Positions 28,728-57,381 of a DNA stretch of 64,000 bases are shown in pieces. The notes under the pieces are model-generated. The model was not told the DNA's origin and searched no databases. It saw only the letters and a list, made by a program, of their open reading frames with translations. This DNA is from Streptomyces katrae (GTDB taxonomy: Bacteria; Actinomycetota; Actinomycetes; Streptomycetales; Streptomycetaceae). The stretch's first letter is position 1, and each line of letters begins with the position of its first letter. Made by a program: the position numbers and the translations under genes. The DNA is taken from contig NZ_CP020042.1 in assembly GCF_002028425.1 (NCBI RefSeq), positions 4,092,001-4,156,000 of the forward strand. The letters run 5' to 3'.

Positions 28728-29522
28728 TCATGGCATCTTCGACCACTCCCCGACCATCTTTGCCCAAGCCGCTGTGTCGGCGAGGAAGGCTTCCCAGCCG
28801 CCGTCGCGCATGTGTCGAGACCAGCGAAAGCCCGGCTTGAGCTGCAAGTGATCGCTGAGCCCGCAGGTAGTGAGCACCGCGAGCTGGATAACAGCGCTGA
28901 GAGAGTTCCGCGCGTGGTGCGAGTGGACAGCCATTCTCTCGCCGGGGGTCTTCGTAACGATGCCTGCGTGCTCAGGGGGCTTCTGGGCCTTGTCCTGATG
29001 TGCGAAGCCGTGGCGCACCTTGACCATCGCGTCAAGGAAGCCCGCCGCCTCAGCCGCTTGATACGACTTGTTTGCCACACGCCATCCCGTGCCGTAGCCA
29101 AGCTCGCTGGGGCTGACCTGAACGTCCAAAGACCAGTCTGGGATGGGGTCATACCGGAAGAAGGTCCAGAACAGCCGGCCAACGTTGTTCGAGTTGGGTG
29201 TCTGGACTATGCCCTTGGGGCCGTCGATCTTGTACCAGTTGTCCTTGGGGGGCGTGGCTTGGCTGTCCTGAGTCTGAGCAGCGAGGGCGAGATCCTCGCA
29301 GAATGCCTCCCACGCGCCGACAGAGGCGACGACGACCGCGCGATTGAGCGACTTGTGCTGAACCTTCGGCTGGCCTGCACCCGTCTTGTAGCCGCGCGCC
29401 AACCGCTCTGCCGTGGTCTGTTGGAGTTGGGATTCGACGACCTCGTGGATGAGCCGTGCGTCTCGTAGGTAGTCGACGAGGTTGATCAGTGGCGCTTGGA
29501 GCGGATGTGGTGTGTTGGTCAT
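28728..29522 (-). CDS. HEPN-domain protein (RiboL-PSP-HEPN-like)
   Basis: 264 residues from ATG 29522 (SD GGGGAG). All-helical, soluble. N-terminal segment NRAVVVASVGAWEAFCEDLALAA and, later, the HEPN catalytic-type motif R-x4-H in DAMVKVRHGFAHQDKAQ, followed by HSHHARNSLSAVIQLA. HEPN domains with an intact RxxxxH are metal-independent ribonucleases common in toxins and anti-phage systems; I place this near the RiboL-PSP-HEPN group. No antitoxin gene is obvious beside it. It could be a stand-alone defence gene of the element. Confidence 0.8.
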   Translation of the reverse strand: MTNTPHPLQAPLINLVDYLRDARLIHEVVESQLQQTTAERLARGYKTGAGQPKVQHKSLNRAVVVASVGAWEAFCEDLALAAQTQDSQATPPKDNWYKIDGPKGIVQTPNSNNVGRLFWTFFRYDPIPDWSLDVQVSPSELGYGTGWRVANKSYQAAEAAGFLDAMVKVRHGFAHQDKAQKPPEHAGIVTKTPGERMAVHSHHARNSLSAVIQLAVLTTCGLSDHLQLKPGFRWSRHMRDGGWEAFLADTAAWAKMVGEWSKMP

Positions 29523-29615
29523 GTGGTTCTCCCCGAGTGCGGCTACTGGCTTACCGATATCAGGCACCCCGCCGGGCAGCCACTGCTTTGACCGGCGCCG
29601 AGGAGGATGTACGGC

Positions 29616-30011
29616 GTGACAGCAGACGACGTAGACAGCGACGTGGTGGAAGCGGCATGGCAGAGGCTGCTCCGATCGGACCAGGTGAGCGCCGAGCTGG
29701 TGGCTGCGGCGTACGCCGAGCCGAGGCTGCGGGAGCTTTTCCCCTGGATCGGCATGTGGGAGGTGCATTTCAGTCGGTGCACTGAGCACCGCTTCACCTG
29801 GGACGTCCCGTACATCGGGCCGCGGGCGGCTGGTGCTGATCACACCGGGCCCTACTACGTCGAAGGTCCCTCCCGCTCTGAGTGGATCGGTGAAGCTGCC
29901 ACGGCGCGGCAGGCGGTCGCCATGGTGGTCGAGCGGCTGCCGGCCGGTTGCGGTCCTGCGTTCGTCGGGACCGCGCAAGCACTAGCCGAGCGAGAGAACG
30001 CGGGGCGGTAG
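29616..30011 (+). CDS. DUF6193-like protein
   Basis: 131 residues. GTG 29616 is preferred over ATG 29607 because the SD AGGAGG (29601-29606) touches the ATG but sits 9 nt from the GTG. The segment FPWIGMWEVHFSRCTEHRFTWDVPYIGPR followed by YYVEGPSRSEWIGEAATARQAVAMVVERLP matches what I remember of the DUF6193 'natural product biosynthesis' family in Streptomyces; no biochemical role is known to me. Last gene before attR. Confidence 0.75.
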   Translation: MTADDVDSDVVEAAWQRLLRSDQVSAELVAAAYAEPRLRELFPWIGMWEVHFSRCTEHRFTWDVPYIGPRAAGADHTGPYYVEGPSRSEWIGEAATARQAVAMVVERLPAGCGPAFVGTAQALAERENAGR

Positions 30012-30944: not shown

Positions 30945-30975
30945 CCTCTGATCCGGAAATTATTGGATAGAGAGG
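30945..30975 (+). promoter_or_regulatory. Possible SD-sequestering hairpin before the 22-codon gene
   Basis: CCTCT (30945-30949) can pair with AGAGG (30971-30975) and ATCC (30951-30954) with GGAT (30965-30968). The 3' arm is the Shine-Dalgarno sequence of the peptide gene (start at 30985). The loop is AT-rich. Suggests translational control, by inspection only. Confidence 0.45.
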
Positions 30976-30984
30976 TGATTTCAC

Positions 30985-31053
30985 ATGCTGAAGTACTCCA
31001 AGCCGGCCGCCAAGACGGTCTCGCAGGGCACCATCCTGCGCATCAACACCTGA
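30985..31053 (+). CDS. 22-residue precursor-like peptide (lasso-leader-like, no core)
   Basis: ATG 30985 with SD AGAGGTG 8 nt upstream; too short for usual gene calls. The product starts MLKYSKPAAK and ends GTILRINT. The Y-x2-P near the N-terminus and a later Gly with Thr at the very C-terminus recall the lasso-peptide leader pattern (YxxP...G...T) recognised by PqqD-like RRE domains, and an RRE-like protein and an asparagine-synthetase homologue are encoded just downstream. Unlike lasso precursors it ends at the position of the leader Thr, has no core, and contains no Asp or Glu. It may be a scaffold peptide whose C-terminus is modified or extended. GC is lower than in the surroundings. Confidence 0.68.
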   Translation: MLKYSKPAAKTVSQGTILRINT

Positions 31054-31071
31054 TTCTGTTCAGGTTAGTTG

Positions 31072-31107
31072 AAGGTGTGCATGCCCCTTGAGGGGCATGC
31101 ACACCTT
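31072..31107 (+). terminator. Perfect 16-bp hairpin between peptide and enzyme genes
   Basis: Arms 31072-31087 and 31092-31107 with a TTGA loop, 18 bp after the peptide stop and 47 bp before the synthetase start. It lacks a T-tract. Such hairpins usually stabilise or partly terminate the precursor mRNA so that peptide exceeds enzymes; an operator role is the alternative. Confidence 0.7.
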
Positions 31108-31154
31108 ACCGGTGTTATCTGACGTCGGGTGTACGTGAATGTGAAGGAATGGAT

Positions 31155-33323
31155 ATGTGCGGTCTCGCGGGCATCGCCCGGCTTGATGGGCAGAATCTTG
31201 GGCCGGGAACCGATTCCCTGCTGAACGAACTGGCCGACATGATGCACCACCGGGGTCCGGACGACCGCGAGTTGCTGCGCCGTGGGCCCGTTGGTCTGGC
31301 TTTCACCCGGCTATCGCTCGTGAATCCCGCGGACGGCAGCCAGCCGTTGGTGAGCGACGACGGAAACCTTGTGCTGATCGCCAATGGCGAGGTCTACAAC
31401 CACAAGGAACTCGCCGCCTCACTTCCTTCCGACGTCAAGCTCAAGACCGGCTCGGACTGCGAGGTCCTGCTCTACCTCTACCGCCGCCACGGCCTGGATT
31501 TCCTCCGTGATGTACGCGGCATGTTCGCCGTCATTTTGTGGGACCGGGCCAAGGGCCAGCTGATCCTCGCCCGCGACCGGTTCGGCATCAAGCCCCTTTA
31601 CTACCACCGCAACCAGGAGCGGATCGTTCTTTCCTCGGAGATCAAGGGGCTGTTCGCCGACCCGGCAACCCCCCGTCGATTCCTCTGGGAAGAAGCGCTC
31701 ACCAACCCGACGATGGCCGCCGCACCGCGGTTCACCGCGCCCCGGATGTCCACGTGGTTCGAGGGCGTGGAGAGCGTGCCGGCGGCGACGATCCTCCGCG
31801 TCGATCTCCAGGACGGCCGCACGACAGAGCACCGGTACTGGGAACTGCCCGCGGAGCGCGACGACGCGGCCGACGCGGAGTCGCTCGTGGAGCGCTACGG
31901 CGAACTGCTCCGGGAGTCCGTCCGGGAATGCGCCACCGCGGACACCGAGCTCGGCCTCTTCCTCTCCGGCGGGATCGACTCGGCGAGCGTCCTCGCGATG
32001 GCCCTCTCCGAGGTCGAAGAGGTACACACCTTCACCGCCCTGTCCGGGGGTACGCGCCTCAACGGAGACGCCGAGCACGCCCACTGGCTGGCCCGCGAAC
32101 TGGGCGTCCACAACCACCAGGTCGTCTTCGCCGCCGACCACGGGCCCACTCCCGAGGAATGGACACGCCTGCTCTGGCTGACCGAGACCCCCATGACCGG
32201 TCCGGAAATCTATTACAAGCACGAGCTGCACCGGTTCGCCCGGACCGAGCGCCCGGAGCTGCGGGGCATGCTCCTGGGCTCCGCCAGCGACGAGTTCAAC
32301 GGCGGATACTCGGACGACGTCGGCGGGAACTGGGACAAGTTCCTGGCCAACTTGAAGGGCATGGACCGGGAAACCCGGCTCGATCAGCAGCCGGAGCTGC
32401 GGCCCTGGTCGTCCGGCGGCATGTCGCTGCTCTCGGACGCAATGCTGGGCGACCTCCAGGGGCGGGGGACGACAGACGTCTACCGCGCCTACATCGAGTC
32501 CGAGTACCGCAAGGTCCAGCAGTACAACGTATGGCACGAGGACCGGACCGCCGCCGGCAGCGGTATCGAGGCACGCGTTCCGTTCCTCGACCACCGCCTC
32601 GTCGAGCTGAGCGCCGGCATCCCGGAGCGCCTGCGTCCGCAGCTCCTGTGGGACAAGCGCATCCTGCGCGACTCGGTGAAGTCCCTCCTCCCTCAGAGGA
32701 TCGCCGAACGGACCAAGGGCCCGTTCTTCTACGGCCCCGGAACCCACTACGCCTACCGCATGCTCGTGAACCTGATGCGGAGCAACAACCAGGAACTCGT
32801 CGAGCGGGCCCTCTCGGCTCCCGGAGCGGACGCCTATCTCGACGCGGACGCCGTCAGACAGCAGCTGGCCCACTTCGGCAGTGGTGACACCGACTCCGCG
32901 TCCGTCGAGCTCCTCATGCGCGTGGTCAACATGGGACTGCTCTCGGAGCTGGTGGAACAGCCCCCGATCCTTGAGAAGATGTCCGCCGGCGCTCCGCGGA
33001 CCGCTCTGCCGAGCGGACAGGACCCGATCGCCGCGACGGAGGAGCTGTTCGCTCCCGCTCGTGAGTACGACCTCGACCAGATCACCGCACTGGCCGAGGA
33101 AGCTCTCCTGCTGTCGGACGAACAGGGGAACTGGTACCTGACGGGCCAGGGGCAGATCGAGTTCGTCCTGGAGGACGGGACTGCGATCCTCGCCGTCCTG
33201 CGCCTCATGGACGGCCGGTCCACCCTGGCCACGGCCCTCAGCCAAGCCGGTGTGGCCTTCGACGATGTCCGCGCGGAGCTGGACGCCCTCTTCGAGCAGC
33301 GCCTCCTCTCCACCACCGGCTGA
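31155..33323 (+). CDS. Asparagine-synthetase-family amide synthetase with RRE-like tail
   Basis: 722 residues from ATG 31155, chosen over ATG 31149 because it places the catalytic Cys directly after Met (MCGLAGIARL) and gives the SD GAAGGA a normal spacing. N-terminal class II glutaminase (Cys2; LSLVNPADGSQPL; ANGEVYNH), then the ATP-pyrophosphatase domain (LFLSGGIDSASVLAMALS, about 268-285; ARVPFLDHRLVE). Beyond the usual end, the last 80 residues (FVLEDGTAILAVLRLMDGRSTLATAL ... VRAELDALFEQRLL) resemble a PqqD/RRE winged helix. The enzyme should adenylate a carboxylate and transfer ammonia or an amine, here probably on the 22-residue peptide or a small acid. The glutaminase appears intact, unlike pure macrolactam cyclases. 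Confidence 0.9.
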   Translation: MCGLAGIARLDGQNLGPGTDSLLNELADMMHHRGPDDRELLRRGPVGLAFTRLSLVNPADGSQPLVSDDGNLVLIANGEVYNHKELAASLPSDVKLKTGSDCEVLLYLYRRHGLDFLRDVRGMFAVILWDRAKGQLILARDRFGIKPLYYHRNQERIVLSSEIKGLFADPATPRRFLWEEALTNPTMAAAPRFTAPRMSTWFEGVESVPAATILRVDLQDGRTTEHRYWELPAERDDAADAESLVERYGELLRESVRECATADTELGLFLSGGIDSASVLAMALSEVEEVHTFTALSGGTRLNGDAEHAHWLARELGVHNHQVVFAADHGPTPEEWTRLLWLTETPMTGPEIYYKHELHRFARTERPELRGMLLGSASDEFNGGYSDDVGGNWDKFLANLKGMDRETRLDQQPELRPWSSGGMSLLSDAMLGDLQGRGTTDVYRAYIESEYRKVQQYNVWHEDRTAAGSGIEARVPFLDHRLVELSAGIPERLRPQLLWDKRILRDSVKSLLPQRIAERTKGPFFYGPGTHYAYRMLVNLMRSNNQELVERALSAPGADAYLDADAVRQQLAHFGSGDTDSASVELLMRVVNMGLLSELVEQPPILEKMSAGAPRTALPSGQDPIAATEELFAPAREYDLDQITALAEEALLLSDEQGNWYLTGQGQIEFVLEDGTAILAVLRLMDGRSTLATALSQAGVAFDDVRAELDALFEQRLLSTTG

Positions 33324-33333
33324 AGGCGGCCCC

Positions 33334-34380
33334 GTGTACCTGCGCGCATTCAAGGAGCAGCTGCTGAGCGGGCCCGTCGAGGCCAGGCCACACGACGGGG
33401 AGTACATCAGCCGCTTCGAACGCTGGGATGCCTTGGCGAGTGTGCGCAGGAGGCCCCGGCGGGACTTCGAAGGCAAAGACCCCGGGCACTTCTTCTTCCC
33501 GCCGGAGCTCTACCCCGTGGTACTGCACCCGATGGTCGCCTCCCGAGGGGAAGGCGTGGTCAGGGGACTGCTGCTGCAACGTCTCTACGACTACCTGGAC
33601 TTCACGACCGAGCTGGAGAACCTGGCCGTCATACCCGTAGCGACCAAGATCAGTCGTGGCCGCTCGGGGCTGAATTTGCCCGAGCACATGAGGGCGGATG
33701 CTCACAAGATAGTCACCGACGAGGCCTGGCACGCCCAGTTCTCCGATGACTTCGCCCGTCAGATCGCCACCTCGACGGGCTCTGCGCGCCTCGGCGCGGA
33801 GAATTCCGCCGGACCCTCGTTCGTCACGCGACTCGACGAACTGCGGGACCAGCTGCCCCATGCCCTCAGGGGCGTGGAGGGCCTGCTCTTCGGGATCGTC
33901 AGCGAGACACTGATCTCGGGCATCCTCTCGGACATTCCGAGGGACGACCGGCTGCCCTCCGCCGTGCGGGAACTCGTTCGCGATCACGCCGAGGACGAAG
34001 GACGCCACCACGTCTACTTCCGCTCGGTACTCAGGCACCTCTGGCCCGCGCTGACGCCTTCGGAACGACGCGACGTGGGCCCCCTCGTACCCGGAGCGAT
34101 CCACGCGTTCCTCGAACCGGACTACGACCGGGCCGCTTACCACCTCGGCGGCATCGGCCTGAGCCGCGACGAGATCGATCAGGTCATCTCCGAATCCTGG
34201 CCGGCTCACCAAGTCCGGCACGACATCTCCGCAGCGGCGTCCCAGCTCACGCGCTACTTCGCCGAGGTGGGCGCGCTGGACGACGTCCGGACGCGGGACT
34301 CATTCGCACAGGCAGGGCTGGTCGGCACCGTCCGCGAGTCCGAGCAGACCGGCTGCACGCCGAGGGAGGTCACGGCGTGA
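33334..34380 (+). CDS. AurF-like non-haem diiron oxygenase
   Basis: 348 residues from GTG 33334 (SD GAAGGCGG), 10 bp after the synthetase. The diiron ligand pattern is visible: Glu in TTELENLAVIPVA (about residue 93), DEAWHAQ (ExxH, about 129-135), Glu in IVSETLISG (about 190) and DHAEDEGRHHVYF (H and ExxH, about 218-230). This order is that of the AurF/CmlI family, which oxygenates amines to hydroxylamines or nitro groups. By context it may N-oxidise the product of the synthetase. The stop overlaps the MFS gene by 4 bp. Confidence 0.83.
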   Translation: MYLRAFKEQLLSGPVEARPHDGEYISRFERWDALASVRRRPRRDFEGKDPGHFFFPPELYPVVLHPMVASRGEGVVRGLLLQRLYDYLDFTTELENLAVIPVATKISRGRSGLNLPEHMRADAHKIVTDEAWHAQFSDDFARQIATSTGSARLGAENSAGPSFVTRLDELRDQLPHALRGVEGLLFGIVSETLISGILSDIPRDDRLPSAVRELVRDHAEDEGRHHVYFRSVLRHLWPALTPSERRDVGPLVPGAIHAFLEPDYDRAAYHLGGIGLSRDEIDQVISESWPAHQVRHDISAAASQLTRYFAEVGALDDVRTRDSFAQAGLVGTVRESEQTGCTPREVTA

Positions 34381-35624
34381 CCACAGAGACGACCGCCGCA
34401 CCCAAGGCCGGCGTGGCTCAGGTGTTCTGGAAGTACTGGCTGGCCACGACGGTCAGCGAGGTCGGCTCGGCCATGACCGCGGTGGCCCTGCCGCTCGTAG
34501 CGGTGACGGCCCTCGACGCCACCGTTCTGCAGACGACGCTGCTCGCGGCCACGAGCCAGGTGGCATGGCTGATCCTCTCGCTGCCTGCCGGAGTCATCGT
34601 CCAGCGTGCCCCGCTACGGCGCCTGCAGGTGACCCTGGACCTGGTGAGACTGGTGGCGATCGGCTCCGTACCGGTGGCCTGGTGGCTGGGGCAGCTCACC
34701 TATCCCCACGTCCTGCTGGCAGCCTTCGTCAGCGGCCTGGCAACCGTACTCTTCGCCATCGGAAACACCACGTTCCTGCCGGCCATCATCGAGAAGGACG
34801 AGCTGAGCTCCCGCAACAGCCTGATGTCGGGAACCCTCGCGGTCACCCAGACCGGCGGACCTTCCCTGAGCGGCCTGCTCATTCAGCTCACCGGGCCCGT
34901 CGGTGTCCTGGCCATCGACGCGGTCAGCTATCTGGTCTCCGCCGTCACCCTGCGGACCCTGCCCGAGCGCAAGCCCGCCGCGCAGCCGCAGGCCAGCCCC
35001 CTCCAGCTGATCCGTGAGGGCTGGAACTTCGTGGTCCGCCATCCCGTCATGCGGCCGACCATGGTCTATGCCACATTGATGAACTTCGTGAACGCGGCCC
35101 TGGTCGCCCTGACACCGCTGTACCTGGTACGCGAAGTGAAGGCATCGGCCATGGTCGTCGGGCTGGTCATCGCCATGGACGGCGTGGGCGCGCTCCTGGG
35201 CTCGACCGTCGCGACGAAGGTGTCCCAGCGCGTGGGAACCGCACGGGCCATGATCGTGGCCAGCGCGTTCGGCGGAACACTGGCGCTGGCCATTCCGCTG
35301 ACGACCTCGATGACGAATGTCTTCTTCTACGGGCTCGGCATGGCCGGCTTCTCCTTCGGCGCCGTCATCGGCAGCATCATGGCCAGGACCCACAGGCAGA
35401 CGGACTCGCCCCCGGAGCTCCTGTCCCGGGTGATGGCCACGGTCCGCTTCGTCTCGTGGGGTGCGCTGCCGCTGGGCGCCGCGCTGAGCGGCTTGCTCGC
35501 GTCGGCCACGGGAGTGAGGACGGCGCTGTGGGTCACCTGCGCGAGTACCCTCGTCGCGCCCTTGTTCCTCCTGCTGTCCTCGGTGGGTCGTCGCCGTAAC
35601 CTGAGCGATCACCCCCAGGGCTGA
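34377..35624 (+). CDS. MFS exporter of the peptide-linked cluster
   Basis: 415 residues, twelve hydrophobic helices, MFS_3-type exporter (FWKYWLATTVSEVGSAMTAVALPLVAV at the N-terminus, central loop LRTLPERKPAAQPQASPLQLIREGWNF). GTG 34377 overlaps the oxygenase stop (GTGA). Placement inside the operon indicates export of, or immunity to, the pathway product. Confidence 0.9.
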   Translation: MTTETTAAPKAGVAQVFWKYWLATTVSEVGSAMTAVALPLVAVTALDATVLQTTLLAATSQVAWLILSLPAGVIVQRAPLRRLQVTLDLVRLVAIGSVPVAWWLGQLTYPHVLLAAFVSGLATVLFAIGNTTFLPAIIEKDELSSRNSLMSGTLAVTQTGGPSLSGLLIQLTGPVGVLAIDAVSYLVSAVTLRTLPERKPAAQPQASPLQLIREGWNFVVRHPVMRPTMVYATLMNFVNAALVALTPLYLVREVKASAMVVGLVIAMDGVGALLGSTVATKVSQRVGTARAMIVASAFGGTLALAIPLTTSMTNVFFYGLGMAGFSFGAVIGSIMARTHRQTDSPPELLSRVMATVRFVSWGALPLGAALSGLLASATGVRTALWVTCASTLVAPLFLLLSSVGRRRNLSDHPQG

Positions 35625-35674
35625 CGGGCGTCCGGTAGCAGGAATTGGTAGGTAAACCGGTGAAAGGCCATGGA

Positions 35675-36463
35675 ATGCAGACAGCGACAACAGACGGCTG
35701 GCTGGCAGCTGTCGAAGCGAGGAACCTGCTGCCCGAAGGGACCCTGGCGGCGTATGTCGTCGGCTCCACCGCCCGCGGCTGGGACAACGCACGAAGCGAC
35801 TTCGACATCTATGTCGTCCTCGATGCCGATGAATTGCCGACCACGCCGAATTCGATCCCTCTGCCGCTTGACCCGCCCTTTATCCGAAGTGAGGTCTTCT
35901 TCGAAGCGGGGAAGCGCTGGGAGGTGACCTACTGGCTCGACAGCCAGATCGACCAGATACTCTCCAAGGTCTCCTGGGAAGCCTACGAAGCAGGCACCAT
36001 CGCCGAGAACACTCTGGTCAAGAAGGAAGAGCAGTCACTGGCCCGGCTGGTCAACTGCCTGCCGCTCCGCGGCCAGGAATGGCTCGATCAGGCCAGGAAG
36101 AAGCTCGCGGAGACGGCCTTTCGGTCGTTCACCGTCGTCCGCTCCCTGGTACTGGCCGATGACGCCGTCGAAGACGCTCTGGGACAGATGGACGCGGGCG
36201 ACCTGTACAGCGCCACGATGTCGGCCCGCATCGCATTCGGTTATTCGATCGACGCGCTCCTCGACGGAGAAGGAGAATACGGAAGCCACCAGCCCAAGTG
36301 GCGCCCCAATCGTTTCAAAGCGGCAGCACCGTCGGCGATTTCGTTCGAGGACTACTGGAAGATCGAGACCATGCAAGATTTCGACCCTGCCGACCCCCGA
36401 CCGTGGATCACAAGAGTCCTCACCATTTGCCAGGACATTGCCATGCGCGTGGAGACCTCATGA
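35675..36463 (+). CDS. DNA-polymerase-beta-like nucleotidyltransferase 1
   Basis: 262 residues from ATG 35675 (AAAGG about 8 nt upstream; GTG 35660 and TTG 35645 are weaker). The nucleotidyltransferase signature is clear: AAYVVGSTARGWDNARSDFDIYVV, i.e. G-S then D42-x-D44, as in MNT/kanamycin nucleotidyltransferases. The C-terminal half is helical (RSFTVVRSLVLADDAVEDALGQ, SARIAFGYSIDALLDGEGEYGSHQPKWRP), like the substrate-binding half of aminoglycoside nucleotidyltransferases. It probably transfers NMP to a hydroxyl, as a biosynthetic step or as self-protection. Overlaps the PqqD-like gene. Confidence 0.82.
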   Translation: MQTATTDGWLAAVEARNLLPEGTLAAYVVGSTARGWDNARSDFDIYVVLDADELPTTPNSIPLPLDPPFIRSEVFFEAGKRWEVTYWLDSQIDQILSKVSWEAYEAGTIAENTLVKKEEQSLARLVNCLPLRGQEWLDQARKKLAETAFRSFTVVRSLVLADDAVEDALGQMDAGDLYSATMSARIAFGYSIDALLDGEGEYGSHQPKWRPNRFKAAAPSAISFEDYWKIETMQDFDPADPRPWITRVLTICQDIAMRVETS

Positions 36464-36741
36464 GCGAGCAGACCACGCGCGACCTCGACGCCGTACCCCG
36501 CAGGGTGCTCGGCACGCGCATCCGCCTGGTCCGAGGCGACTACTGGATCGGCGGGGAGGGCGACGCCCTCCAGCTCACAGGGCCCGCCAACATCATCTTC
36601 GCCGCCCTGGACGGCCGGCGCAGCGTCGCGAGCGTGATCCGGCTCGTCGTCACCGAATACGACGTCGACCCGGAGGAGGCCGCCGCGGACGTCTGGGAGT
36701 TCCTCGACGACCTGACGGACAGAGGCATAGTCGCGTGGTAG
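36460..36741 (+). CDS. PqqD-like RRE protein
   Basis: 93 residues, ATGA overlap with the nucleotidyltransferase. Typical PqqD-like layout: short beta strands (RIRLVRGDYWIGGEGDALQLTGPANIIFAALDGRRSVASVIRLV) then the winged helix (DPEEAAADVWEFLDDLTDRGIVAW). Such stand-alone RRE proteins (lasso B1, PqqD) bind leader peptides at the YxxP motif and deliver them to modifying enzymes. This is the main reason to read the 22-codon gene as a true precursor or scaffold. Confidence 0.88.
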   Translation: MSEQTTRDLDAVPRRVLGTRIRLVRGDYWIGGEGDALQLTGPANIIFAALDGRRSVASVIRLVVTEYDVDPEEAAADVWEFLDDLTDRGIVAW

Positions 36742-36769
36742 CAACATTTCCCAGCCGGGCCCCGATGCC

Positions 36770-37720
36770 TTGATCCGGCTGCAGATCGATGACGCGACCC
36801 TGTACAGGACCCGCCTGACGATCAGTCCCCTGTGGGAGACGATCGGCAGCCTGGCCATCCTTGCCCGCTATCGCGGAGACGTCCCGAACCCGTACACGAA
36901 CTGGGCCCGGTCGGTCCGGCCCGGGATGCCGGCCGAGCTCAGCCGGGACCTGGTGGACGCGATGAGACACCGCGACTCCCTGCTCCTCGATCCGGGCTTC
37001 GTCCCGGTGCCGAGTCCGTCCCGCAGCAGCATCACGGACGAGTTGGAACACCTCCGGGCCACGCAGCCCCGTAACGACCGAACAGACCGTATCATCGGCC
37101 TGCTCGAGCGGTACTGGGACTGGGCGATCGCTCCTCACTGGGGTTCGATCAGGTCTTCCCTGGAGGAGGAAACCCTCTTCCGGGGACGCACCCTCGTGGT
37201 CCAGGGTCCCGAGGCGATGCTCCACGAGCTGGACGGCCGGGTGATGTGGTCGCACCCCACACTGACCGCGCCCTACCATCACGACCTCGATCTCACCGTG
37301 ACGCAGTCCCAGTTGCTGCTCGTGCCGACGGTCTTCGCCGGCGGCCTCCGTCTCTTCGGCAGACAGGAGGATGCGATGGCGATGGCCTACCAGGCACGCG
37401 CCACCGGCTACTTCCACGTGCTTTCCGAGTCGGTCCTGAACCAGGAGTCCGACGACCGGCTGGCGCTTCTCCTGGGCAAAGGCCGGGCCCAGGTGGTCCG
37501 TGCCCTGGAATCACCCCAGACCACGACCTCACTGGCCGGCACCCTGGGTCTGGCGAAGAGCACCGTGTCCCAGCACCTCACAGTGCTGATCGACTCCGGG
37601 ATCGCATGGAAGCAGCGGGTGGGCGGCCGGGTCTTCTACGAACTCGACAACGACGGGCGGGCGTTGCTCGGACGGCTGGGGCAACCGAGTCGGGTGGCCC
37701 GGTCGTCCATCCCCGGGTGA
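36770..37720 (+). CDS. ArsR-type winged-helix regulator (DUF5937-like N-terminus)
   Basis: 316 residues from TTG 36770 (weak SD; the next good start would remove conserved sequence). The N-terminal 180 residues begin with a DUF5937-like segment (TISPLWETIGSLAIL); the C-terminal winged helix is ArsR-like (LAGTLGLAKSTVSQHLTVLIDSGIAWKQRVGGRVFYEL). There is no Cys metal site, so the ligand is probably organic. Most likely the pathway regulator, transcribed with the operon, 28 bp after the PqqD-like gene. A few short repeats (GGTGCGCAAGGACCG twice near 37735-37770) follow. Confidence 0.85.
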   Translation: MIRLQIDDATLYRTRLTISPLWETIGSLAILARYRGDVPNPYTNWARSVRPGMPAELSRDLVDAMRHRDSLLLDPGFVPVPSPSRSSITDELEHLRATQPRNDRTDRIIGLLERYWDWAIAPHWGSIRSSLEEETLFRGRTLVVQGPEAMLHELDGRVMWSHPTLTAPYHHDLDLTVTQSQLLLVPTVFAGGLRLFGRQEDAMAMAYQARATGYFHVLSESVLNQESDDRLALLLGKGRAQVVRALESPQTTTSLAGTLGLAKSTVSQHLTVLIDSGIAWKQRVGGRVFYELDNDGRALLGRLGQPSRVARSSIPG

Positions 37721-38126
37721 GCAAGGACGACACGGCGGTGCGCAAGGACCGCTCCGGGGGTGCGCAAGGACCGGCCCCGGGGGATCAGGAGTTCACCCCA
37801 GCGGACGGCGGCGGACCCGAAACGGAATCATCCACCCGATCGGCAAACGACCGTATTCCCTTGTAACCACCGGCTTTGGCCTCATCGGGCCACCGAAGAC
37901 TGGAATCGCATTCGGCAATCGGACAACCTGTCATTCACCGCATCTCATTCCCCGAGACATCACAGGTTTACGGTTTACAACCCGCCCACTGCGCCTTTAG
38001 GTTCACTTGAGAGTCGGCGGGGGGGCCGAGTTCAGAACCATGGATTCACCGGACAGAACTTGTGTCCCTGGTGCGCGCCTTCCCTCCTTCGATAACGGAA
38101 CGGAACAGCTCACAAGGGTGGTCGAA
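37721..38126. other. Intergenic region, likely promoter for the second half of the cluster
   Basis: About 400 bp, notably AT-richer (37850-37990) than its surroundings. An in-frame ATG at 38040 could extend the kinase gene by 29 residues. Two copies of GGTGCGCAAGGACCG lie just after the regulator stop. No other gene seen. Confidence 0.45.
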
Positions 38127-38795
38127 GTGCGCGCACAGCAAAACCCTGCGGAATCGGGATCCAGGACCGGACGCCTCGTGGCCGTAATAGGTCTGGACGG
38201 AGCCGGCAAGTCGTCCCAGGTACGCATGCTCGGCGAATGGCTCCGCTCCCAGGGCGTCCCGGGCCAGGCCCATCAGAGCGTCACCATGGCACCTGTCCGC
38301 AAGGCCCTCAACGCCATGGCCGAACAGGAAGGTCTGGCAGACCACTTGGAGCTCATCGGCGGCGAGACCATGCGTCTCGTCTCCGCCTGCTCCCAGCTGG
38401 CCCGGGTCGCCGCGTTCGAGCCGATCCTCAAGACGTCCCCCGACATCGTGATCCTCGACCGCTTCGTCTACTGCCAGTACGCCCTGGCCAAGGCGGAAGG
38501 GGTTGGTAGCGTAGATTTCCTGCGCAGGCTCCTCGGAAACGCGCCCAAGCCGGATCTCACGATATTCCTGGACGTATCCCCGGCCGAAGCGGTACGCCGG
38601 ATCAACATACGCGGAATCGACGAAGAGAGCGCGGAGTTCCTCGAATCCTTCCGGTCCGCGTACATCGATCTCCCCGAGTTCACCGAATTCGTTTCGGTTC
38701 CGGGTGACGGCGACTTCGAGACGGTGCAGCTCGCGATGAGACAGGCGATCATCGACGCGTTCCCCGAGAACTTCGCGAACGTCGCGGCCACCTGA
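38127..38795 (+). CDS. Thymidylate-kinase-like P-loop kinase
   Basis: 222 residues from GTG 38127 (AAGG 9 nt upstream; GTG 38118 and ATG 38040 are alternatives). Walker A GLDGAGKSSQ (22-31), the DR motif in VILDRFVYCQYALA, and the typical PDLTIFLDVSPAEAVRRI segment with the LID-like RGIDEESAEF. TMP-kinase family proteins in biosynthetic clusters phosphorylate nucleotides or small phosphorylated substrates; housekeeping tmk is not expected here. It may act with the nucleotidyltransferases and the aldolase on a phosphorylated building block. Confidence 0.83.
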   Translation: MRAQQNPAESGSRTGRLVAVIGLDGAGKSSQVRMLGEWLRSQGVPGQAHQSVTMAPVRKALNAMAEQEGLADHLELIGGETMRLVSACSQLARVAAFEPILKTSPDIVILDRFVYCQYALAKAEGVGSVDFLRRLLGNAPKPDLTIFLDVSPAEAVRRINIRGIDEESAEFLESFRSAYIDLPEFTEFVSVPGDGDFETVQLAMRQAIIDAFPENFANVAAT

Positions 38796-39237
38796 GCCTC
38801 TGCTCTCGTCGCCGACCCGTCGGCCGGCGGCTGTATTTCCCGCTGACATACGGAATCGGAATCTGACGGACCAGGCTTCGGGCGGCGCCTGAACAGGCGC
38901 CCCGAGCCGCTGTGAGCCGTCCTGATACCTGTCACCCGACACCTCACCAAGGCCCGGCACTCCGAGCCGCTTCGAGCCACGCCACGTCGATTACCTCGGC
39001 GATGCCGGTGGCCCTCGTCCTCACGCCCGGCCACTAGGGCCATCGCCCGGCGCCAGCCACCCATGGGCCGCCTGATGCGTCGTCGCCAGCCGCCGTGATC
39101 GCAACACACCTGGCGCTGAGCGAACCGCGAGGCAGCCGAACCTGCGGGTTCGACTTCAGCAATGCACCCACCAACGAGGGGATCACGTCATCAAAGGCTC
39201 CATCGTTCTGGTCAACGACACTGACGAACTCGAAATC
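38796..39237. other. Intergenic region, or extended aldolase leader
   Basis: About 440 bp. The aldolase frame is open for some distance upstream of GTG 39238 and GAGGGG lies at 39175-39180, but there is no ATG/GTG/TTG in frame there. No other gene or strong hairpin recognised. Confidence 0.4.
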
Positions 39238-40014
39238 GTGCGGTCCATCCCTCAGGAGCGGCAGCACCGACTGACGCAACTGATCGCCGCACTCCGCCTG
39301 TTCTCCCGATGGGGGTACGACGAAGGCGAGGGCTTCGCCGGACACTTCGCGTGCCGGGACCCCGAAGTGACGAACGCCTTCTGGGTCAACCCCGTCGGGG
39401 TGCACCTGTCGATGATCGACGTCGACGATCTCGTACTGCTCGACTACGAGGGCAACGTGCTGGCCGGCCACCACCCCGTCAACATCGGCGCTCTGGTGCT
39501 CCACTCCCGCGTGCACGCCGCCCGGCCGGATGTCGTCGCGTCAGCACATTTCCATTCCCCGTACGGACGCATCTGGGCCAGTACCGGCCGGGTACTCCCG
39601 ATCATCAGCCAGGACACCTGCGCCTTCTACCAGGACCAGGCGGTGGACCACGAATTCGGCGGTCTTCCCCACAGCTTCGAAGACGCCCAGGCAACCGCCG
39701 AGTCGCTCGGCGATATGAACACGCTGATCATGAAGTACCACGGCCTGCTCACCGTCGGAGCCTCGGTGGAGGCAGCCGCCTGGCGCTACATCACCCTGGA
39801 GAGGGCTTGCAAGGCGCAGGTGCTGTCCGCGGGACTCGGGCCGCTGGAGCCGATTCCGCACGATGTCGCCCTCAAAACGCAGCGCTACGTGGCCTCCGAG
39901 GAAAGCGCGCGCGTGCAGTTCCAGCCCCTCTACGACTACATCGAACACGTCGACGGGGCGTGGACCACTGACGCGTCCCGCATGCCCGTGGTGCCCACCG
40001 CCACTCCGGTCTGA
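39238..40014 (+). CDS. Class II aldolase/adducin-family protein
   Basis: 258 residues from GTG 39238. Zinc-binding pattern of the fuculose-/ribulose-phosphate aldolase family: H-x-H in ASAHFHSPYGRIWA (about 103-105) and the third His in IMKYHGLLTVG (about 167), plus GFAGHFACRDPE near the start and NPVGVHLSMI. These enzymes split or epimerise ketose phosphates, but the family also includes many members without assigned reactions. It is followed 92 bp later by the aminotransferase; together they could make an amino-alcohol or amino-sugar fragment. Confidence 0.85.
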   Translation: MRSIPQERQHRLTQLIAALRLFSRWGYDEGEGFAGHFACRDPEVTNAFWVNPVGVHLSMIDVDDLVLLDYEGNVLAGHHPVNIGALVLHSRVHAARPDVVASAHFHSPYGRIWASTGRVLPIISQDTCAFYQDQAVDHEFGGLPHSFEDAQATAESLGDMNTLIMKYHGLLTVGASVEAAAWRYITLERACKAQVLSAGLGPLEPIPHDVALKTQRYVASEESARVQFQPLYDYIEHVDGAWTTDASRMPVVPTATPV

Positions 40015-40106
40015 TCCCCTCCGCCCTCAGACGGCCTGCCGCAAGGCGAACCGGAGGCCTGGTTACGGCAATTCGTGCGGATCAGCCCACCATTTCAGGA
40101 GGACCG

Positions 40107-41198
40107 TTGAAGACTCAGCTCACCCGGCCGGAACTGGACAGCTTGCCGTCCTACCTGCCCAGCCCCATCCCGCTGGACAGCAGTGGGGCTCCGCAGGTGA
40201 ACAACGCCGCGAGACTCGCGCTCAACGAGCTCCCTTTCGGGCCGCTGCCCGGCGTTCTCGACGCGATCATCGCCGCCGCCGGTGACACCAACCGATATCC
40301 CGACATGGCAGCTCTGGCCCTGCGCAAGGCATTGGCCGACCGACACGGACTGACACCGGATCGAATAGTGACCGGCTTCGGGTCGGTCTACCTCCTTGAA
40401 CTGCTGCTGAAGGCCGTATGCGCACCGGGCCAGGAGTTCGTGTTCTCCCAGCGGTCCTACGAGGCATATCCAGTCGTCGCAGTGGGCGGCAGCCTGCGGC
40501 CTGTAGCAGTACCCTGCACCGATGATTTCCGTCAGGATCTCGACGCGATGGCGGCGGCGATAACCGCCGACACCCGAGTGGCCCTCATCTGCAATCCAAA
40601 CAACCCGACCGGCACTGCCGTCACCCGTGCGGAGCTCACCAAGTTCATCGACTCCGTCCCGGAATCGGTCCTGGTCGTTATGGACGAGGCCTACGGTGAG
40701 TTCGTCACGGATCCCGAGGTGCCGGACGGCTTGGTCGAGTACAGCGACCGCCGCAATGTCGTGGTGCTGCGCACCATGTCAAAGGCCTGGGGCCTTGCGG
40801 GCCTGCGCCTGGGTTGGCTGGCTGCCGCACCGGAAGTCGCCGAAGCCATGCGCAAGCTCCTCGCCCCCTTTGCCACGAGCACCATCGCCGAAGCCGCCGC
40901 ACTCGCCGCTTTCGGGCAGGAGGACGAGGTGCGCCGCCGGGTCGACTGCATCACTGCGGAACGTGCCCGCATGTTCCCGGCACTGAAGGAATTCGCACCC
41001 CGGACCCCGGAGTCGCACGCCAATTTCTTCTGGCTCCCCATGGAAGATCCCGCAGCCTTCGCGGCACACTGCGCAGCCGCCGGGGTGCTCATCCGCGACT
41101 TTCCCGAAGCCGCCCGCGTGACCGTCGGCAACCCCGCAGAAAATGACCGGCTGCTCGCGATAATAGCCACGGCGGACAGACTGCTGGAAGCCGGGTAA
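40107..41198 (+). CDS. HisC-like PLP aminotransferase
   Basis: 363 residues from TTG 40107, backed by the strong SD CAGGAGG (40096-40102). Fold-type I aminotransferase of the HisC/CobD group: ARLALNELPFGPLPGVLDAI, NRYPDMAALALRKALADRHGL, ICNPNNPTGTAVT, VVMDEAYGEF, and the PLP Lys in RTMSKAWGLAGLRLGW (about residue 225). Housekeeping hisC is unlikely here, as no his genes are near. It probably aminates the aldolase-derived carbonyl compound or supplies an amino acid for the cluster. Confidence 0.88.
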   Translation: MKTQLTRPELDSLPSYLPSPIPLDSSGAPQVNNAARLALNELPFGPLPGVLDAIIAAAGDTNRYPDMAALALRKALADRHGLTPDRIVTGFGSVYLLELLLKAVCAPGQEFVFSQRSYEAYPVVAVGGSLRPVAVPCTDDFRQDLDAMAAAITADTRVALICNPNNPTGTAVTRAELTKFIDSVPESVLVVMDEAYGEFVTDPEVPDGLVEYSDRRNVVVLRTMSKAWGLAGLRLGWLAAAPEVAEAMRKLLAPFATSTIAEAAALAAFGQEDEVRRRVDCITAERARMFPALKEFAPRTPESHANFFWLPMEDPAAFAAHCAAAGVLIRDFPEAARVTVGNPAENDRLLAIIATADRLLEAG

Positions 41199-41208
41199 GG
41201 ATCGACCA

Positions 41209-42009
41209 GTGTTTATTCCTCTTGACGCCGACGGCTATCTGATAAATCTTGCCGACGCCGAGAAAGTGGACCGGCCGTGGCTCCCGCTGATCGAGAGTCT
41301 GGTGGATGAGTACCGGGCACGCTATCCAGATCTCGCCAGCATCTACGTGCGGGGATCGGTCGCCACCGGTACGGCCGTATTCGGATATTCGGATCTCGAT
41401 CTGATAGCCGTGACGTACGAGGAGAGTGCGTTCGACAGGGTCTGGATGGCCGAGGCTGTCGAACGAACGCTCAGCCGGCACTCGGTTTCGGTGGACATCG
41501 ATCTCGCGACGACGTCCGCGAAAGCGGTTCTGACGGACCGGAAGAGCGGATTCTACATCAAGACGCAATCGGCTCTGATGTACGGCGAAGACTTTGCGCC
41601 ACGGATCTCCCCTTATCGGATTGACCCCGACGCGTTCAGTCATCTGTTCAATCTCGAACTCGATCTCTCGGCGGTCCGCTACGCGATGGACGGGGCCTCC
41701 GAGGCATTGGCGCAAACCCTGGTCCTGCGACTTGTGAAGCGAGTTCTGCGGGCCGGTCTGGAATTGTTTGCCGAACGGCAGCAGGTATATACGCGCGACC
41801 CTCGGACATGCTGCGAGCTCTTCGGGCAACAGTATCCTGAAAAGGCTGCTGCCATGTGGAGCGCTCTGGATCTGATGGCCGGTTCCACCGATCCCGGCGA
41901 GTGTCTTGAACTCATCGAATCATTGATTCAGTGGCTGGTGGCCGAGCGGGCGCGTATTTACCCACTGGAAGTGCCGAAGATTGCCTTTATTGACGACCTT
42001 GGAGTCTGA
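41209..42009 (+). CDS. DNA-polymerase-beta-like nucleotidyltransferase 2
   Basis: 266 residues from GTG 41209, 10 bp after the aminotransferase. The signature SIYVRGSVATGTAVFGYSDLDLIAVTY gives G-S (49-50) and D62-x-D64, with VSVDIDLAT as third-acid region. The C-terminal half is helical. It shares the fold but little sequence with nucleotidyltransferase 1 at 35675, so the cluster has two separate nucleotidyl-transfer steps, or one biosynthetic and one protective enzyme. Last gene of the island. Confidence 0.82.
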   Translation: MFIPLDADGYLINLADAEKVDRPWLPLIESLVDEYRARYPDLASIYVRGSVATGTAVFGYSDLDLIAVTYEESAFDRVWMAEAVERTLSRHSVSVDIDLATTSAKAVLTDRKSGFYIKTQSALMYGEDFAPRISPYRIDPDAFSHLFNLELDLSAVRYAMDGASEALAQTLVLRLVKRVLRAGLELFAERQQVYTRDPRTCCELFGQQYPEKAAAMWSALDLMAGSTDPGECLELIESLIQWLVAERARIYPLEVPKIAFIDDLGV

Positions 42010-42268: not shown

Positions 42269-43135
42269 ATGAGTCCTGAGAAGAGGACCGCATCCCGTCT
42301 CGGCCCCCTCCCCCGGCAGGGGAGGTATCTCGCAGGCAGCGCGGTGGCGTCGCTGGCCGTCGTGGTGCTGGGCCTCGCCACCCCGGCGCTGGCGTACGGC
42401 ACGAGCCCGCTGCCGTCGGCGTCGGCAGCGGTGGCCGGCGGTGACCGGTGCAAGGAGCACGACCGCGACCACGACGATGACGACGGGGACCGCGCCTCCG
42501 CCGCGCGTGGGGTCGCGGGCGGCGGCTACGACGACGACTGCAAGCGCGGGCCGCGGGGTCCGAAGGGTCCGAAGGGTCCGAAGGGCGACACCGGTCCGAC
42601 GGGTCCGACCGGGCCTACGGGGTCCACGGGCGCGACCGGGCCCACGGGTCCCACGGGTCCCACGGGTCCGACCGGTGCCACGGGTGCGACCGGCGCCGGG
42701 TGTGGCATCGGCGTCGACTCGATCCTGTCCAACAACACGGAAGAGTTCGCCGTCGTCCTGTTCAACGGTGTCGCGTACGCCGGGCACCGGGACGACCCGC
42801 AGACGGGTCCCTACAAGTTCGAGGCCCTCAACAACCCCGCGCAGAACCCCGGGTACCCCGACCCCTCCATCGTCTGCTCCGCCAGCATTTCGTCCCTGGG
42901 CCAGGTGACGAACTTCAAGGTGCTGACCTCGACCGGCTTCCTGTACGAGCTCCAGTGCACGTCCAACGGGACGACCCTGAACTGTGGGTCCACCGCCCCC
43001 CTGGATCAGCGGCCCTGGAACGTGGTCCCGCCCCAGTTCGTGGCCAGCGGCCCCTTCCTCGCCGGCGGGGCGCCCCCGAGCTCCGGCTTCGGGGGGAGGG
43101 AAAAGGGGCTCTCGAAGAGCGAAAAGCGCTCCTGA
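42269..43135 (+). CDS. Secreted collagen-like repeat protein
   Basis: 288 residues from ATG 42269 (SD AAGGAG at 42255-42260). Twin-Arg-free signal peptide ([22 protein letters not shown]), then a His/Asp-rich segment ([14 protein letters not shown]), then 17 uninterrupted Gly-X-Y triplets (about 93-144: [20 protein letters not shown]...GATGATGAG) that should form a triple helix. A C-terminal domain follows with four Cys ([27 protein letters not shown]). Collagen-like proteins in bacteria are usually surface structures; trimerisation may come from the C-terminal domain. It is the first gene after the old att remnant. Confidence 0.88.
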
Positions 43136-51167: not shown

Positions 51168-51819
51168 GCGCCACCCCTCGTCACACGCGGAACGCAGACG
51201 CCGCCGGGGCATAGGCGCCCGGCATTTCGTAAACCCAGCGTAGTTCCCCGCCTCCCAAGCGTTAAGGCCCCGAGTTCCGTATGGCGAGATTGTTGTCCGT
51301 GCACACCGTCCGCCGGGGCCCGCTCCCCGGGGCGTACGCCTCGGATCGTGCTCCGGCCGTGTGGCCGTGCGCCCGGCCGTGCGCTCTGGCCGCACCCGGG
51401 GCCCGGCGATTCGATGTGCCGTGCGTGGGTCGGCCCGCCGGGTGGATCCGGCAGGCCGGGGGATGCCGCTGCCTCAATCCCCGCGGGTGGCGGAACGGTC
51501 CGGGGGGTGCGATCAGGCCTCCCGGACCGCGCCCCGCGGCCTCCCGCCGCTCCTCGCGCGAGGACGCCTACGGGCACTCAGTACGGCCGAAGAATGGCCG
51601 AAACCGACCTATGGGGCGGTGGGAACGGAACGCCAAAAACCGTGTGGCCGAGGCGTGTTCGTTTACCTGTGCGCCCCCGAAGCCGCTCCCGCACGCCCGT
51701 CTCGTGGCAGCATGGACCCCGAGCCACCGGGGTCCCGCCGGCCGCGCCCTCAGCGCCGACCACGTCGTCCGTGCCGCCCGTTGCCCCGGTCATGTGCCCA
51801 CGGGCTGGGGGAGGCGGCG
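51168..51819. other. Long divergent promoter region
   Basis: About 650 bp between the divergent NsdA-like and asparagine-synthase-like genes. The 51820 frame stays open through it but lacks coding bias before the SD GGGGGAGG at about 51806-51813. No RNA gene or strong dyad recognised. Confidence 0.4.

Positions 51820-54171: not shown

Positions 54172-57367
<3,196 letters not shown>

Positions 57368-57381
<14 letters not shown>

Follow-up and report, generated by a model that had tools for sequence, protein, structure and literature searches.

A 22-codon gene beside an AsnB/AurF enzyme pair in Streptomyces katrae is the probable precursor gene of an undescribed family of very small modified peptides

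What is a gene of only 22 codons doing directly ahead of an asparagine-synthetase homologue? The question is raised by a 64,000-nt stretch of the 8.06 Mb genome of Streptomyces katrae (NZ_CP020042.1), called the window below, to whose positions all coordinates refer. A sequence-only reading of this window had proposed that the short gene encodes a leader peptide without a core, and that the synthetase acts on its terminal threonine. Comparison with related loci leads to a partly different answer. The encoded peptide is probably the precursor of very small modified peptides that form an undescribed family, and on the best reading, to which we give a probability of roughly one half, the AsnB-type enzyme together with an AurF-like oxygenase would convert the C-terminus of this ribosomal peptide into a hydroxamic acid. 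By its anatomy this actinobacterial family belongs to the ribosomally synthesised and post-translationally modified peptides (RiPPs), its tailoring pair is already known from non-ribosomal hydroxamates, and the family itself is known here from its genes alone. Searches of an open-access library brought up no description of it; closed journals lay outside their coverage.

The elements of the cluster are listed here, with counts that refer to 43 non-redundant loci with a related AsnB gene. The short gene, its good Shine-Dalgarno sequence and its stop codon were confirmed as first described, and Pfam or NCBIfam models bore out the AsnB, AurF-like, major facilitator superfamily (MFS), ArsR, kinase, aldolase, aminotransferase and second nucleotidyltransferase assignments.

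~30972..30979, forward strand: Shine-Dalgarno sequence gaggtgat of the precursor gene (from the sequence; similar G-rich stretches precede the start in relatives)
30985..31053, forward strand: precursor peptide gene, 22 codons plus TGA, MLKYSKPAAKTVSQGTILRINT (putative leader approximately residues 1-18, putative core approximately 19-22)
31072..31107, forward strand: hairpin in the precursor-asnB spacer, a 16-bp perfect inverted repeat without a U tract (sequence, fold energy)
31155..33323, forward strand: AsnB-family amidotransferase with a C-terminal domain (approximately residues 640-722) resembling PqqD and the RiPP recognition element (RRE); likely start MCG at 31155
33334..34380, forward strand: AurF-like diiron N-oxygenase (Pfam/NCBIfam; 35 of 43 loci)
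34377..35624, forward strand: MFS exporter (Pfam; family in 23 of 43 loci)
35645..36463, forward strand: pol-beta-type nucleotidyltransferase (GS...SDxD motif and predicted fold; 37 of 43 loci)
36460..36741, forward strand: stand-alone PqqD-like RRE (PqqD model matches below cut-off; 35 of 43 loci)
36770..37720, forward strand: ArsR-type helix-turn-helix regulator with a long N-terminal part (Pfam; 18 of 43 loci)
38007..38795, forward strand: thymidylate-kinase-like P-loop kinase, an optional cluster member (Pfam/NCBIfam; 11 of 43 loci including the window)

A scan of the genome collection gave 20 loci with a close AsnB, in actinobacterial records of which about half were Streptomyces, and the sample comprised the 43 loci after removal of copies (L061-L065 and L067, which duplicated loci already present). 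In overlapping genome samples, AsnB matches were found in 9 of 297 genomes of the family (E<=1e-120) and 23 of 392 of the genus (E<=1e-110), and among 396 genomes sampled across the phylum only in the window's own. In keeping with the sequence-only reading, which homologous clusters without the short open reading frame (ORF) would have contradicted, this ORF accompanies the enzyme: it was present and open in 42 of the 43 loci, missing only in L059, and in 41 of them it lay no more than 600 nt upstream of AsnB. L078 carries two copies with different ends approximately 5 kb upstream, and L015 and L021 have three tandem copies each. Exactly 22 residues were encoded in 43 of the 44 distinct peptides, the exception being the 20-residue peptide of L020. 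A six-frame scan of the 1.57 Mb of fetched DNA, which is partly redundant, for the pattern [MV]xxYxKP with a stop codon after a further 11-19 residues returned 44 family members and a single unrelated 18-mer. In the window's genome, the pattern of the first seven codons occurred three times and a backward control six times, thus the start of the motif is not rare by itself; the significance of the peptide rests on its conserved place, length and sequence, and the association of the short ORF with AsnB goes far beyond chance. Genes of 22 codons may well escape gene finders.

Does this peptide have a core? Among the 41 distinct 22-mers, M1, Y4, K6 and P7 are invariant. The leader-like peptide with its Y-x-x-P motif and the RRE partner, both recognised at the outset, were upheld. 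Position 12 is always V or I (V in 39), positions 15-18 mostly read [GS]T[VI]L, and variability is highest at positions 19-22. The pooled ratio of nonsynonymous to synonymous polymorphism, a crude value, was 1.54 in codons 19-22 versus 0.79 in codons 2-18. Over 41 loci the stop codon stays at the same place while its identity varies (32 TGA, 6 TAA and 3 TAG), and the bases beyond it are not conserved; on these grounds a longer precursor was rejected. Since residues 1-18 are conserved and 19-22 variable, with the higher ratio at the end and stops at one place, the peptide is, judged by these patterns, a leader of about 18 residues followed by a hypervariable core of about four (three to four), rather than a leader without core. 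Should the leader follow the lasso rule, with threonine as its penultimate residue (PMC10368454), T16 would speculatively place the cut after residue 17 and leave a five-residue core. A conserved leader and a variable core beside modifying enzymes and an RRE, the general marks of a RiPP cluster, are all present here.

The terminal threonine, expected to be conserved, proved to be one of several end residues: A in 11 of the 41 distinct 22-mers, V in 10, R in 8, T in 7, K in 2, I in 1, and others in two. What stands of the earlier proposal is the carboxylate. The window peptide has no Asp or Glu and only some relatives have them (Asp13, for instance, in 11 of 41), so the C-terminal carboxylate is the sole one common to all, and it is likely the site at which AsnB acts.

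A short ORF followed by a strong hairpin directly upstream of asnB, as seen in most loci, could also be the regulatory leader peptide of an attenuated asnB operon with the hairpin as its terminator. The spacer fold energy had a z score of -3 or lower in 32 of 41 loci (40 shuffles each). However, the window hairpin has no U tract and is no classical terminator, Y4, K6 and P7 are invariant and V12 nearly so, and the peptide end co-varies with enzymes, as described below. The distant copies in L078 and the tandem triplets in L015 and L021 also fit an attenuator poorly. The invariant leader residues, the end co-variation, the L078 copies and the missing terminator led us to reject an attenuator peptide, which appears very improbable. 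An Rfam search gave no match for the hairpin region, and we can only guess that the hairpin tunes the ratio of precursor to enzyme or makes the precursor mRNA more stable.

The AsnB-type enzyme itself appears intact. The glutaminase Cys (C2), the SGGxDS loop, E380, Y385 and K501 were invariant in all 40 aligned sequences (40 of the 43 loci; L005, L010 and L071 were left out), and the five-residue spacing of E380 and Y385 is that of the Glu363/Tyr368 pair of PesC (PMC13060819). The enzyme passed NCBIfam TIGR01536 (320.5 bits, cut-off 267.1), and its predicted model (mean predicted local distance difference test, pLDDT, 89) had as best fold match the TsnB9 hydroxyamidotransferase (7ylz, E 1.4e-28), with E. 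coli AsnB at 4.6e-26. In this model the C-terminal ~80 residues form a strand/helix domain, and over 50-72 columns this domain could be aligned with the profile of the cluster PqqD proteins (probability 88-92%). This domain, the hairpin and the hydroxamate reading of AsnB with AurF were absent from the sequence-only reading.

With its YxxP leader, discrete PqqD-like B1 protein and AsnB homologue, the cluster has the features common to split B1 (PqqD)/B2 lasso systems, and could be a lasso-type pathway in degenerate or minimal form, with AsnB as the cyclase. However, the lasso-cyclase models stayed far below cut-off (NF033535 186.7/525 bits, NF033561 76.7/300 bits) while the AsnB model was exceeded, there is no ring-forming core and nothing past position 22, the glutaminase Cys is kept, and the partners include AurF and a nucleotidyltransferase. 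A profile search for the B2 protease (PF13471) gave none in the window's genome; of 23 genomes searched, 12 had matches, none near the cluster, the nearest on a cluster contig at ~0.8 Mb (G980). In a tree of 33 rows the cluster AsnB family formed one clade (97/100), which lay nearer to AsnB/TsnB9 than to the lasso-type rows with weak support (82/99), the latter being three long-branched rows of albusnodin/ikarugamycin type, with classical NF033535 cyclases left out. A lasso product, already argued against in the sequence-only reading, was rejected because no B2 protease lies near the cluster, the cyclase scores are below threshold, the glutaminase Cys is intact and the clade is separate, and it hardly seems credible.

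A second AsnB-domain protein is encoded elsewhere in the window (51760-54030, forward strand). It is related to the albusnodin/ikarugamycin-family macrolactam cyclases (NF033561 215.6 bits, cut-off 300) and groups with the lasso-type rows of the tree, not with the cluster AsnB; a 1069-aa ORF at 54172-57381, regulator-like by eye, follows it.

If the C-terminus is the site of AsnB action, which group would be placed there? The AurF-like TsnB7 and the AsnB-like TsnB9 are the reported hydroxamate pair of trichostatin, with ActI/ActJ (actinonin) and MatA/MatC (matlystatin) proposed as further pairs (PMC5719088, PMC13418202), and the absence of both genes has served to predict a product without hydroxamate (PMC12130866). 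The trichostatin helper TsnB6 has no counterpart in the actinonin and matlystatin clusters (PMC5719088). For FzmA, a related AsnB homologue, transfer of hydrazine from a glutamyl carrier onto a carboxylate has been proposed (PMC6133997), and AsnB-like enzymes amidate or nitrilate RiPP C-termini (PMC13060819). In the window, an AurF-like oxygenase with its diiron ligands adjoins an AsnB with its glutaminase nucleophile, the combination expected of an AsnB/AurF hydroxamate pair. The seven positions that we take to be the diiron ligands, placed by alignment to AurF 3chh, were invariant in all 31 gene-called cluster AurF homologues.

AsnB, AurF, the nucleotidyltransferase and PqqD occurred together in 33 of the 41 loci with an upstream peptide, and also in L078; the clusters of L010 and L014 are cut by contig ends. 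As a control, AurF homologues outside the clusters were examined in place of TsnB7/TsnB9 orthology, since the TsnB9 homologues in Streptomyces are a common AsnB clade. Only 1 of 20 had an AsnB in the fetched stretch, or 1 of 17 independent ones once three second AurF copies, which lie 11-15 kb from a cluster AsnB, are set aside (20 of 24 outside homologues were fetched; G693:C294:5323, G752, G869 and G801 were left out).

Second AurF homologues approximately 11-15 kb from a cluster AsnB are located at G228:C34:268449, G687:C1:9584006, G765:C409:71443 and G693:C294:5323, and all four clusters carry a cassette with proteins like the haloacid dehalogenase (HAD) family and nucleoside diphosphate kinase (NDK). 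L098 (G693:C285), in the same genome as L003, has a separate AurF homologue approximately 5 kb from an AsnB gene, with an aldehyde dehydrogenase and a CDP-alcohol phosphatidyltransferase between them, and is perhaps another N-oxygenase/AsnB cluster.

Trichostatin, actinonin and matlystatin biosynthesis share an AurF-like oxygenase and an AsnB-like enzyme with the present cluster. Their substrates, so far as known or proposed, are not ribosomal peptides: they are trichostatic acid, benzoic acid or an acyl-CoA (PMC5719088, PMC13418202). Unlike these systems, the present cluster has an AsnB with an extra PqqD-like domain, and a peptide, a PqqD protein and a nucleotidyltransferase as partners. An AsnB-like enzyme likewise acts at the C-terminus of a ribosomal peptide in the case of nitrilobacillin PesC, thiostrepton TsrC and scytodecamide ScdTA, with other precursors and partners: PesC works with MNIO and HExxH enzymes, TsrC on a thiopeptide and ScdTA on a cyanobactin (PMC13060819). 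The main text of that paper mentions neither AurF nor PqqD.

Two partner proteins scored below the cut-offs of their models. For the first nucleotidyltransferase, the SDxD motif and the predicted fold agree with the assignment while the Pfam score falls just below cut-off (20.1 versus 21 bits); GS...SDxD was invariant in all 36 aligned sequences (36 of 37 homologues, L010 left out), and the model (pLDDT 93) has a fold like that of the ANT(4')/kanamycin nucleotidyltransferases (10-12% identity, template-modelling score ~0.5). The latter enzymes place a nucleotide on a hydroxyl. The gene at 36460-36741 gave weak matches to PqqD models and to PqqD/TfuB1 chains of the PDB, with all model scores below their cut-offs (best 32.0/46 bits; lasso PqqD model 25.5/70 bits).

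Further evidence came from the accessory enzymes. A LanM-type protein lies near AsnB in five loci (L005, L014, L015, L016 and L017). Over 39 loci (L004 and L010, with contig ends beside the cluster, were left out, and L059 and L078, with no upstream peptide, lie outside the set), six associations were obtained with tests picked after looking at the data and p values that ignore relatedness: LanM with Thr at -2 (5/5 versus 1/34 others, namely L018; Fisher p 1e-5); the HAD/NDK/c9 cassette (HAD phosphatase, NDK-like protein and two families without Pfam match) with two small aliphatic end residues (8/8 versus 4/31, p 8e-6); c9 with terminal V or C (7/8 versus 3/31, p 6e-5); a Gcn5-related N-acetyltransferase (GNAT) with terminal T (4/5 versus 2/34, p 0.0009); the ATP-binding cassette (ABC) protein c13 with N at -2 (5/6 versus 5/33, p 0.002); and the thymidylate-kinase-like protein with terminal A (6/10 versus 4/29, p 0.009). 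L078 has neither LanM nor Thr at -2. The loci with LanM and Thr -2 fall in three apparent lineages (L005, L014+L015 and L016+L017): L014 and L015 form one clade (100/98), L016 stands beside the LanM-free L072 (90/92, below the level starred in the tree), and the L005 AsnB is 69% identical to that of the window. The L014 LanM exceeded its cut-off (488.3 versus 304 bits) and homologues are present in the other four loci. WCRG and CHG of the LanC part are kept in four of the five and both lost in L014. Class II lanthipeptides combine Ser/Thr with Cys; none of the five peptides contains Cys, which precludes a lanthionine within the peptide, and dehydration or phosphorylation would be expected from LanM. 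Such co-variation of the peptide end with accessory enzymes makes the C-terminus the probable substrate and is an indirect sign of peptide modification.

The same data bear on a scaffold role. In pathways with a peptide aminoacyl-tRNA ligase (PEARL), such as those of ammosamide and 3-thiaglutamate, a small natural product is grown at the C-terminus of a ribosomal peptide. Here, too, the peptide might only carry a small amine-containing molecule coupled by AsnB, without its residues entering the product, and a fixed length with a variable terminal residue agrees with this, as does the varying set of kinase-, phosphatase-, aminotransferase- and ligase-like genes among clusters. Co-variation of the terminal residues with LanM and the HAD/NDK/c9 cassette is unexpected for an inert carrier, however, and the intact glutaminase suggests that nitrogen comes from glutamine rather than from an external amine. 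The cluster also differs from PEARL systems in having AsnB in place of a LanB-like tRNA-dependent ligase, which was not found among the Pfam-scanned proteins (these scans covered only some neighbours), and in its 22-residue precursor. We regard a pure scaffold as unlikely.

The hydroxamate reading thus draws on the precedent of the AsnB/AurF pair, the action of AsnB-like enzymes at RiPP C-termini, the fixed length of the peptide and an end that tracks enzymes. The ribosome would make a 22-mer of fixed length, whose leader (residues 1-18, Y4-x-K6-P7 ... V12 ... mostly [GS]T[VI]L) would be recognised by the stand-alone PqqD, by the PqqD-like domain that AsnB carries, or by both, so that the fixed length would set the distance of the C-terminal carboxylate from the RRE. 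AsnB would adenylate this carboxylate and then attach nitrogen from glutamine or a glutamine derivative. The hydroxamate could arise by transfer of hydroxylamine from glutamyl-gamma-hydroxamate, as in trichostatin biosynthesis; alternatively, the new amide could be N-hydroxylated, as proposed for actinonin and matlystatin. Lineage-specific enzymes may alter core residues, such as LanM at Thr -2, and the nucleotidyltransferase may modify the product, perhaps on the hydroxamate oxygen, so as to activate it or to protect the producer. A general or other protease would free a very small hydroxamate, to be exported by MFS or ABC pumps and expected to inhibit metalloenzymes. That the product is a hydroxamate seems an even bet, and the role of the nucleotidyltransferase and the activity of the product are put forward with low confidence.

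Several findings weigh against this reading, along with the way in which the co-variation tests were chosen. By sequence, E. coli AsnB scored slightly above TsnB9 (9.6e-38 versus 1.5e-36), and TsnB9 belongs to a broad AsnB clade, since 55 of 150 genomes contained matches to it (51-57% identity); because of this broad clade and the reversed order by sequence, the fold match to TsnB9 is weak evidence for hydroxylamine transfer. AurF homologues mostly occur without AsnB, therefore AurF alone does not imply a hydroxamate, and the nearest one outside the family (L096) lies beside a PF00797 N-acetyltransferase. The scanned genes included no dedicated protease. PqqD was not detected in L003, L020 has no AurF, and L059, the locus without a peptide, has an AsnB of 37% identity on the deepest family branch of the tree. 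In L057, L058, L079 and L080, peptide and AsnB occur with no AurF, nucleotidyltransferase or PqqD within ~9 kb on each side. L020 and this subclade, the intact glutaminase and synthetase residues, the higher sequence score of E. coli AsnB and the RiPP precedents TsrC and ScdTA (amide) and PesC (nitrile) (PMC13060819) would suit C-terminal amidation or nitrile formation only, with AurF acting on another amine or small-molecule part. On the other hand, AurF is kept in 35 of the 43 loci, and the AsnB/AurF pairs of the literature are tied to hydroxamates (PMC5719088, PMC12130866). Amidation alone or a nitrile has an appreciable minority chance, above all for the AurF-free subclade.

A more specific version of the hydroxamate reading is tentative and in our view somewhat improbable: in what would be a new class of RiPP, a peptide with a core of two to five residues would receive its C-terminal hydroxamic acid from AsnB and AurF and then be nucleotidylated to R-CO-NH-O-NMP (NMP, nucleoside monophosphate), giving gene-encoded, evolvable peptide hydroxamates or Trojan-horse nucleotides. 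The nucleotidylation is a bold extension. If the hydroxamate reading is true, hydroxamate warheads, otherwise known from metalloprotease and deformylase inhibitors, would also be made on gene-encoded peptides, and mutating codons could alter the residues ahead of the warhead. Trichostatin is a hydroxamate histone-deacetylase inhibitor. With its unusually short precursor of fixed length, the family would allow the way in which an RRE and a set spacing bring a C-terminus to an AsnB-type enzyme to be tested cleanly, and it bears on the ~300 uncharacterised AsnB-like RiPP candidates noted in PMC13060819.

The whole run up to 42009 had been taken as one pathway, an extent that did not survive the comparison. 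The following genes close the run:

39238..42009, forward strand: class II aldolase, HisC-like aminotransferase and second nucleotidyltransferase (Pfam/NCBIfam; membership uncertain)

In a protein clustering of the neighbourhoods, the aldolase and the second nucleotidyltransferase belonged to no family common to at least three loci, and the aminotransferase clustered with nothing but genes of L054, L069 and L077 that lie 4-10 kb from AsnB, so that we doubt their membership and do not count the three in the family. The two nucleotidyltransferases of the window have no significant BLASTP similarity, hence the second is no BLASTP-detectable paralogue of the first. A collagen-like repeat protein (42269-43135, forward strand) lies just downstream of the region, and upstream of the precursor gene a protein on the reverse strand (28728-29978) has a HEPN_RiboL-PSP match barely below the Pfam cut-off (28.3 versus 28.4 bits); PADLOC matches reached at most 37.5 bits. 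Among the other loci, L006, L007, L012, L019 and L022 have stand-alone pyruvate-kinase barrel proteins nearby, with two copies in some. L008, L009, L011 and L013 have a largely common upstream cassette of an alcohol dehydrogenase, a beta-lactamase fold, a pantoate-ligase-like protein, a class III aminotransferase, a TauD dioxygenase and a 2-hydroxyacid dehydrogenase.

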